DNA of 45,263 bases from an uncultured Ulvibacter sp. (GTDB lineage Bacteria > Bacteroidota > Bacteroidia > Flavobacteriales > Flavobacteriaceae), in assembly GCA_938041335.1 (NCBI GenBank), contig CALIAF010000012.1:1-45263 (forward strand). Reading direction: 5' to 3'. Shown here piece after piece: positions 11,261-13,152 of this stretch. The notes beneath the pieces were generated by a model. That model searched no databases. It saw only the letters and a program-made list of their open reading frames with translations, and was not told the origin of the DNA. The first letter of the stretch is position 1, and each line of letters begins with the position of its first letter. A program made the position numbers and the translations under genes.

Positions 11261-13152
11261 CTATAAATCTAGATCGAAGGTTTGTCTTAGCTTATCCAGT
11301 AATGGATTCTTCTGGTTGAGTTTATCAAATTTCTCTCGAGTAGTATATGCGTATTTTTTTGCTACCTCTTCGTTCACTTCAATAGAGAGGTCAATGTTGT
11401 AATTGTTTAATTTTTTCTTGATAAACCCTAAAAGATCACCTTGTTCACGTTCTACCTCAAGTTTGATCGTGTTATTTGGAAAAATAAGATGTATTAATTC
11501 TCCCTCTACTCTTGGCTCGCCCATGGTTAAATGAGAAAAAAGGATGTGTTTCCCTTCTTTTTGCACTTGCGCGGTGTATTCTTTCCAAACTGCTATGAGG
11601 GTTTCTTCTTTAAATGGATCTGTAGGTAAGTTTTGCGAATCTGGCTGCTGGGACTGCAGTTCTCGCTGCATTTTTTGCTTTTCCTGAATGCTTTTTATGG
11701 AGAGTCCAGAAATTTTACGTTCCGATCTTTTCACTTCAATAACTGGACGTGATTCTGTCTTTTTTATTTCTTCCGAAATAGGTTGTGTTTCAACCATAGG
11801 AGGATGTATTGAAGCAGAAGCTATAATGGGCTCTGTGTGTAATTCTGTTTTTTGAGTAGCAGGAATTCCAGGTGGTACTATTTCCGAAGTAGGCTCAGTC
11901 ACCATATGTTGTTCTTCTGAGATCGCACCTTCTTTCGGTATTATTTCTTCTCCTTCTGTATTAGTAGGAACAGTAACAGGTGCAGATGTAACATCTAATC
12001 GTTCTACTGGTGATACTAGCTGCCCTTTAAAATAGGAGGGAGGCAACACAAAGCGTTTTTCTGAATTTAGTTGGCTATTGGACTTTTTTTTTCCTCATTT
12101 GCCGTTATTGAGGCCAATTGCATTAAGCAAAGCTCCACTAACAATCTTTGGTTTCGGCTAGTCTTGTATTTCAAATCACAATCATTTGAAATCTTGATGC
12201 CTTCAATTAAAAAGCTTTTGGGCGCTTTTTGAGATTGCTCAAAATACATTTTCTTAACTTGCTCGCCTACTTCTAGAAGTGCTATGGTTTCTTGATTTTG
12301 GCACACTAAAAGATCTCTAAAGTGAGATGCCAGACCCATTATAAAATGATGACCGTCAAAACCTTTAGATAAGATGTCATTATAGTCTACGAGGGACTGC
12401 GGTATATTATTACTTAGCAGTAATATTGTTATTTTAAAATAATAGGTATAATCTAAAACATTGAGGTTTTGAGTGACGGCCTCTCTTGTCAAGTTTTTAC
12501 CACTAAAACTAACCACTCTATCAAAAATAGAGAGTGCATCACGCAGCGCACCATCTGCTTTTTGAGCAATAATGTGTAAGGCGTCATCTTCTGCCTCTAC
12601 TTGCTCCGCTTTTGCCACTACTTTAAGATGCCCTTTAATGTCTTGAACAGTAATCCGTCTAAAATCAAATATCTGGCATCTGGATAAAATGGTAGGGATG
12701 ATCTTATGTTTTTCTGTTGTTGCAAGTATAAATATTGCGTGTTTTGGCGGCTCTTCTAGGGTTTTTAAAAAGGCGTTAAATGCCGCAGAAGATAGCATGT
12801 GTACTTCATCAATAATATATACTTTATACTTTCCAGTTTGCGGTGGGATACGTACTTGGTCTGTTAGATTCCTAATGTCATCTACAGAGTTGTTAGAAGC
12901 CGCATCTAGTTCAAATACATTAAAAGCAAAATCTTCATCTGCTTTTTCTGTACCATCACTGTTAATCTTTTTTGCAAGTATACGTGCACAGCTTGTTTTT
13001 CCTACTCCTCTTGGACCAGTAAAGAGTAATGCTTGGGCCAAATGGTTATTGTCTATGGCATTCTCTAAAGTACTTGTAATGGCTTGTTGCCCCACAACTT
13101 CTTTAAAAGTAGTGGGCCTGTATTTTCGTGCCGAAACAATAAATGGTTCCAT
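11261..13152 (-). CDS. dnaX: DNA polymerase III tau subunit, read through a -1 shift at A9
   Basis: Clamp-loader/organiser subunit of DNA polymerase III. Full length needs a -1 shift at the A9 run on the minus strand (12092-12084), giving 630 residues, near the usual length for this family. Residues 1-360 are the AAA+ core. After the run the -1 frame reads through KRFVLPPSYFKG, then a Pro/Glu/Thr-rich linker of about 140 residues, and ends in a compact domain (LIFPNNTIKLEVEREQGDL to LRQTFDLDL) that I recognise as the flavobacterial DnaX C-terminus. The -1 frame has a TGA at 12097-12095 and the zero frame a TAA at 12069-12067, so the switch must fall between them. miaE follows after 18 bases. 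A single-base sequencing error in the run is the alternative. Confidence 0.8.
12067..13152 (-). CDS. dnaX: DNA polymerase III gamma-length product (zero frame of dnaX)
   Basis: The unshifted product of dnaX has 361 residues starting MEPFIVSARKYRPTTF. It contains Walker A GPRGVGKTS, Walker B IIDEVHML, sensor/SRC segment LSRCQIFDF, and the oligomerisation domain, and ends EEKKSPIAN right after the A9 run. That equals domains I-III, the part that makes a clamp loader, so the short form should be functional as gamma. The ATG at 13152 was chosen because it begins the conserved core and has a promoter box just in front; the frame is open upstream to 13329 without meaning. The four cysteines of the usual DnaX zinc module after Walker A are absent (ARILAKKINSDGTEKADED), as in other Bacteroidota. 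Confidence 0.88.
   Translation of the reverse strand: MEPFIVSARKYRPTTFKEVVGQQAITSTLENAIDNNHLAQALLFTGPRGVGKTSCARILAKKINSDGTEKADEDFAFNVFELDAASNNSVDDIRNLTDQVRIPPQTGKYKVYIIDEVHMLSSAAFNAFLKTLEEPPKHAIFILATTEKHKIIPTILSRCQIFDFRRITVQDIKGHLKVVAKAEQVEAEDDALHIIAQKADGALRDALSIFDRVVSFSGKNLTREAVTQNLNVLDYTYYFKITILLLSNNIPQSLVDYNDILSKGFDGHHFIMGLASHFRDLLVCQNQETIALLEVGEQVKKMYFEQSQKAPKSFLIEGIKISNDCDLKYKTSRNQRLLVELCLMQLASITANEEKKSPIAN
12084..12092 (-). other. A9 slippery run (programmed frameshift or transcript slippage)
   Basis: On the minus strand the zero-frame codons are GAG GAA AAA AAA AGT, so the run contains the heptamer A AAA AAA, a classical -1 slippery site, and nine A's is also the length at which RNA polymerase slips in Thermus dnaX. 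The zero frame stops five codons after the run. GAGG abuts the run on its 5' side, too close for the Shine-Dalgarno stimulator used in E. coli dnaX, and I see no clear stem-loop downstream, so slippage during transcription is the likelier mechanism. Confidence 0.7.

Follow-up and report, generated by a model that had tools for sequence, protein, structure and literature searches.

Results

The dnaX gene of the window is divided between two reading frames

In the window (the whole 45,263-nt stretch of DNA that was analysed), dnaX lies on the reverse strand. Its zero frame spans 12067-13152, from an ATG at 13152-13150 to a TAA at 12069-12067, and encodes a gamma-type product of 361 aa. The zero-frame codons at the joint read AAT GAG GAA AAA AAA AGT CCA ATA GCC AAC TAA, in which GAA AAA AAA AGT contains a run of nine A's (A9, 12092-12084), the putative slippage site. 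The C-terminal part of tau is found on the same strand in the -1 frame (11261-12094), where 277 codons lead to a TAG at 11263-11261. This frame is closed upstream of the run by a TGA (12097-12095) and the zero frame is closed downstream of it by the TAA, so the switch between frames is confined to 12094-12067. A third frame, entered with one A less or two more, ends at a TAG at 12077-12075. If the run is read as A10, full-length tau has 630 aa. Re-reading of the sequence confirmed where the original prediction had placed the run, the stops and the switch, as well as its view that gamma is the templated default and that tau needs a net shift, the zero frame stopping at 361 codons and the tail being in the -1 frame.

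The two pieces are consecutive parts of a single protein model, PRK14971 (NCBIfam gamma/tau, 614 positions). The 361-aa piece corresponds to positions 1-371 (E 2.5e-190) and the -1 tail to positions 401-613 (E 5.2e-23). Either piece by itself falls below the full-length cut-off of PRK14971; with TIGR02397 the gene scores 381 bits, the cut-off being 250. Based on these matches, the gene is predicted to encode the DnaX gamma/tau subunit of the clamp loader, with an AAA+ clamp-loader part and a tau tail. The gamma frame had also been said to end exactly with the AAA+ core. It does not: the AAA lid covers residues 172-218 of the gamma piece and approximately 140 residues come after it, including a weak delta-C-type match (residues 239-346) that is below its cut-off. 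The nearest named dnaX genes, among the best 80 of at least 594 matches, belong to Flavobacteriaceae, namely Aequorivita viscosa (85% identity) and Pukyongia sp. (84%).

Runs of at least nine A's were surveyed in the window and in loci L001-L008. The window contains four, and only the dnaX run sits in a long open frame (421 codons from stop to stop); the remaining three lie in open frames of 22, 46 and 67 codons.

The A-run is widespread in the family and order

We drew 149 Flavobacteriaceae genomes with a completeness of at least 90% and obtained 148 dnaX genes, all of which were retrieved; the family counts were built from genomes with G handles only. A run of at least nine A's is present at the gamma/tau joint in 147 of the 148 genes. 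Relative to the gamma part, the tau tail is in the zero frame in 124 genes (hereafter tau-default), in the -1 frame in 20 and in the +1 frame in three (both gamma-default), with one gene unassigned. The tau-default genes include L269, which was placed there by hand because the script had scored it as +1 owing to a break 77 codons downstream. One family member, L046 (G030), reads GTG GAA AAG TAA at the joint and has no A-run, yet its tau tail is in the -1 frame.

From 23 genomes of other families of the order we recovered 21 dnaX genes, G038 and G058 giving weak matches only. Their tau tails are in the zero frame in 10, in -1 in eight and in +1 in one, with two unassigned. In the 80 named loci, which are the best 80 of at least 594 matches and an uneven sample of the phylum, the script found runs of at least nine A's in 62; the count is 64 after reading two rows whose runs it had clipped (L122 and L155, where the printed codons give A10). 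The tau frame in these 80 loci is zero in 55, -1 in 20 and +1 in two, with three unassigned. Named gamma-default species include Flavobacterium denitrificans, F. quisquiliarum, F. psychrotolerans, Flavicella marina, Chryseobacterium lathyri and Halpernia humi. Within the stretch searched, a run of at least nine A's is absent from all three Bacteroidaceae, both Mucilaginibacter and all three Hymenobacter named loci, where the site either does not occur, and so is not universal, or is placed elsewhere; in the other named loci with short runs, too, the run may fall outside the stretch searched. Counts taken over all sets overlap to some degree, since L159 and L059, and likewise L131 and L056, seem to come from the same genomes, each pair having contigs of identical length. 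L076 gave no tau match since its contig ends.

In L063 (G050, a genome of 0.3 Mb), dnaX stops at approximately 341 codons and no tau-tail match was found in the stretch fetched; the genome is reduced, and its dnaX may encode gamma only. In the portion of PMC3971599 available, dnaX of symbionts is given merely as present or absent. A search of a plasmid collection (34 records) returned only distant dnaX matches, of 60-80% identity; one Prevotella region (L273) was left out of the analysis.

The run and its flanking stops appear to be under selection

In 142 of 146 family genes, both non-tau frames reach a stop within 10 codons of the run, compared with 37% of controls taken from tails and 35% from gamma parts (L269 being entered here with the frame of its later break). 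The corresponding figures are 15 of 18 in the other families of the order (controls 37% and 30%) and 56 of 60 in the named loci (controls 31% and 28%). We then considered the 123 family genes scored as tau-default and reshuffled them synonymously, keeping the protein and redrawing codons according to the usage of each gene. A run of at least nine A's was observed in 123 of 123 genes versus 46% expected, and both stops in 120 of 123 versus 22.5% expected; in these tests, as in those on the stops above, related genes are taken as independent. Elsewhere in the same 123 dnaX genes there is one other such run in 217,122 coding nt. The site thus looks selected.

The length of the run varies little. 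In the tally over all loci, the numbers of A9, A10 and A11 runs are 10, 154 and 14 where tau is in the zero frame, 5, 34 and 9 where it is in -1, and 1, 3 and 2 where it is in +1, such that A10 is the most frequent length in each of the three frame states. Other loci with tau in the zero frame have shorter runs (5-7 A's, in 10 loci) or no run close to the joint. The tally counts L269 as tau-default and omits L064, L270 and L272 (from G010, with other breaks), L271 (the same place as L065) and L046, L054 and L063 (no long run).

The templated frame changes repeatedly

To follow the default frame across species we used a single-gene FastTree phylogeny of the gamma part with 256 leaves, 249 of which have an assigned state; L065 and the G010 loci are outside this tree. 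Tau is the default in 194 leaves and gamma in 55, the latter including L046 and L054. The minimum number of changes of default frame is 33 on the resolved tree, 29 when branches with support below 0.8 are collapsed and resolved toward fewer changes, and 22 at 0.9. For the family loci alone the minima are 19, 17 and 14. Raising the threshold to 0.95 leaves just six changes, two of them in the family (values that predate the reassignment of L269), which shows that the count depends on branches of moderate support. Some of the rarer frame states may stem from single homopolymer miscalls. When labels are shuffled, approximately 51 changes are needed on the resolved tree, compared with 33, which indicates that the frame state is partly inherited.

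An instructive pair is Flavobacterium sp. YO12 (A9, tau in +1) and F. denitrificans (A10, tau in -1), which have near-identical flanks and are both gamma-default. A labile templated frame combined with a near-constant run length is as expected if the run itself generates the mixture of frames.

Three relatives have an E. coli-like cassette

Three loci from another family of the order, L054 (G054) in one genus and L304 (G184) and L305 (G201) in a second, have no long A-run. Their joint reads CCA AAA AAG, followed at once by a TAG or TAA stop, and a hairpin begins 5-6 nt past the AAG. The hairpin of L054 has a folding energy of -26.5 kcal/mol (z -5.6); 70-nt folds of L304 and L305, taken without a shuffle control, gave -20.8 and -21.6 kcal/mol. 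The -1 frame is open for 211-217 codons in the three loci and contains the tau tail. Judged by these features, the joint resembles the ribosomal shift site of E. coli, but with inverted frame logic. Most other examined loci of that family have kept the A-run, which suggests that one mechanism may have replaced the other.

Transcriptional slippage or ribosomal frameshifting as possible mechanisms

The dnaX gene of Thermus thermophilus resembles that of the window in having A9 at the gamma/tau joint and nearby stops in the non-tau frames (PMC1088944, PMC5009743); in the window these stops are the TAA and the TAG described above. The two differ in that Thermus templates tau, as do 124 of the 148 family genes, whereas the window templates gamma, and its slippage is predicted from sequence. 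We consider the window dnaX to be genuine and functional, and its A-run to be a programmed, Thermus-like site of transcriptional slippage that gives both gamma and tau, with a probability of approximately 0.7. Most likely, RNA polymerase would slip on the run, giving dnaX mRNAs that differ in their number of A's. Transcripts carrying 10 A's (or 7, or 13) would yield full-length tau, and those with other numbers of A's would reach a stop within a few codons and yield gamma. A faithful copy of the A9 template of the window would thus encode gamma, and a faithful copy of the template of most relatives, which is in the tau register, would encode tau. The templated frame would matter little, gamma and tau being made together. 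We infer that slippage occurs, that it takes place during transcription and that the cell makes and uses both products.

The main rival, which we regard as improbable though well ahead of the others, is a programmed -1 ribosomal frameshift, in which tRNA-Lys re-pairs at A_AAA_AAA to make tau from a faithful mRNA. The motif itself counts against slippage by the polymerase, as A_AAA_AAA, and A_AAA_AAG in some relatives, is shift-prone for ribosomes too. The direction of the shift bears on both readings. Across the 55 gamma-default leaves, the net shift required is -1 in 49 (two of which, L046 and L054, have no long run) and +1 in six. The six favour slippage, because a -1 ribosomal shift does not give +1. 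The bias of 49 to six counts against slippage that is blind to direction, as it is what a -1 ribosomal shift, or slippage biased toward adding one A, predicts. Direction-blind slippage is therefore only partly consistent with the data. According to the rule of Antonov et al. (PMC3711429), both directions within one gene family point to transcription and a single direction points to translation; here both are present but unequal.

Downstream structure bears on both readings as well. The window has no downstream hairpin (fold z +0.78). In every second of the 148 family loci (n = 73), structure downstream of the run is weak, with a mean z of -0.34 compared with +0.01 in controls. A z below -2 is found in five of 73 downstream stretches and one of 73 controls. 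These five loci, and a mean slightly below that of controls, fit a ribosomal shift, as does the resemblance of L054, L304 and L305 to a ribosomal site, but the window and the 68 of 73 genes that are not below -2 do not. Furthermore, 9-11 A's exceed what a shift heptamer needs. An upstream stimulator would be weakened by the sequestered anti-Shine-Dalgarno of Bacteroidia, although prfB frameshifting persists there (PMC8710568). GGAG directly precedes the run in 91 of 148 family genes; we set it aside as a Shine-Dalgarno stimulator given this sequestration and because it also encodes Gly-Glu. Overall, transcription is favoured by the length of the run, the +1 genes alongside the -1 genes and the weak downstream structure. 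Transcriptional slippage and a ribosomal shift may also both act at one run.

The dnaX gene of Escherichia coli, like that of the window, encodes two products and has a lysine-codon slip site. It templates tau, with a -1 shift at A_AAA_AAG that is stimulated by a hairpin and a Shine-Dalgarno-like element (PMC3711429, PMC5009743). The window differs in having neither a hairpin nor a zero-frame A_AAA_AAG; L054, L304 and L305 have both, with the frames inverted. Closer to these three than to the window is the reversed dnaX of Chlorobium phaeobacteroides, described as unpublished in PMC5009743, which has potential E. coli-like stimulators. It shares with the window a zero-frame gamma stop past the site and a tau that would be made by frameshifting.

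The A9 state is shared within the genus

In a sample of 11 genomes of the genus, A9 and a tau tail in the -1 frame are found in three species, that of the window among them (G000, G005 and G009). A fourth genome, G006, has A10 and a shorter flank, and it too templates gamma. At the joint of the remaining seven, tau is the default and the run is A10 throughout; according to the original prediction, relatives whose frame is unbroken and which lack the A-run would refute it, and these unbroken relatives keep the run. The contig of G002 ends early, and the dnaX of G010 (L064) has extra frame breaks away from the run that resemble sequencing indels. The A9 genomes group together as a single clade in a phylogeny of 22 tau tails (support 100/99), and G006 joins them (97/94). 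In the three pairs within the A9 clade, dN/dS of the out-of-frame tail is 0.11, 0.08 and 0.11, synonymous sites being nearly saturated. The out-of-frame tau tail is under purifying selection. Given the shared clade and the low dN/dS of the tail, the flip is probably older than the A9 species and the tail is still selected.

These observations leave little room for phase variation or decay, in which the run mutates in the DNA and flips cells or strains between tau-on and tau-off, or in which tau is being lost. Such a process would fit a default frame that is labile between species (the comparison is between species, with one genome for each), and A-runs do mutate by replication slippage (PMC1088944). 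However, the tail remains constrained after the flip and the stops in both other frames are kept. We therefore consider this explanation highly improbable. Moreover, tau is essential for replication in E. coli. Loss of one A from an A10 tau frame by sequencing or assembly error, raised in the original prediction and plausible in that homopolymers are error-prone and the most frequent state is A10 with tau templated, is very unlikely and was rejected, since three separate genomes of one clade share A9 and its frame state, G006 of the wider clade is gamma-default with A10, and 23 of the 148 family genes are gamma-default.

Discussion

That inversion of the frames, with gamma templated and tau requiring the shift, is a new logic is not supported. 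Besides occurring in those 23 family genes, the inversion belongs to a type known since 2013, when Antonov et al. (PMC3711429) described 17 dnaX genes from 12 genera that need recoding to make tau. A poly-A run is at the transition in 12 of the 17, with A10 in nine and 9, 8 and 7 A's in three, and transcriptional slippage was proposed for them. The window has the same arrangement: a zero frame that ends as gamma, a conserved tau tail in another frame (-1 in the DNA) and a poly-A joint. It differs from the nine A10 genes in having A9, and the members named in the text available are Chlorobi; some of those nine may already come from flavobacteria. Nor would the arrangement be inverted in effect, because slippage of the polymerase would yield mRNAs in all three frames whatever the template.

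A literature search, partial in its coverage, recognised no paper on the spread of the site across Flavobacteriaceae or on the lability of its frame. What is added here is the breadth of the site, its lability, and the finding that three relatives have instead a shift cassette resembling that of E. coli. A broader picture, for which we see an even chance, is that much of the Bacteroidota makes its replicase subunits by a frame-neutral transcriptional stutter, in which the run is selected to stay near ten and drift of the templated frame is almost unconstrained (at least approximately 29 flips in the genes examined), 'broken' and 'intact' dnaX being alike in function; in a side branch of the order, a hairpin-driven ribosomal shift with inverted logic would have taken the place of the stutter.

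If the slippage reading is right, reading-frame flips are tolerated in an essential gene because RNA polymerase supplies all frames, which would be a clear case of a functional homopolymer frameshift that could be mistaken for gene breakage or misassembly. The family would then offer a large natural series, with the same run and differing templated frames, for measuring the yield and direction of slippage and the ratio of gamma to tau, and its relatives would allow transcriptional and translational recoding to be compared within one gene.
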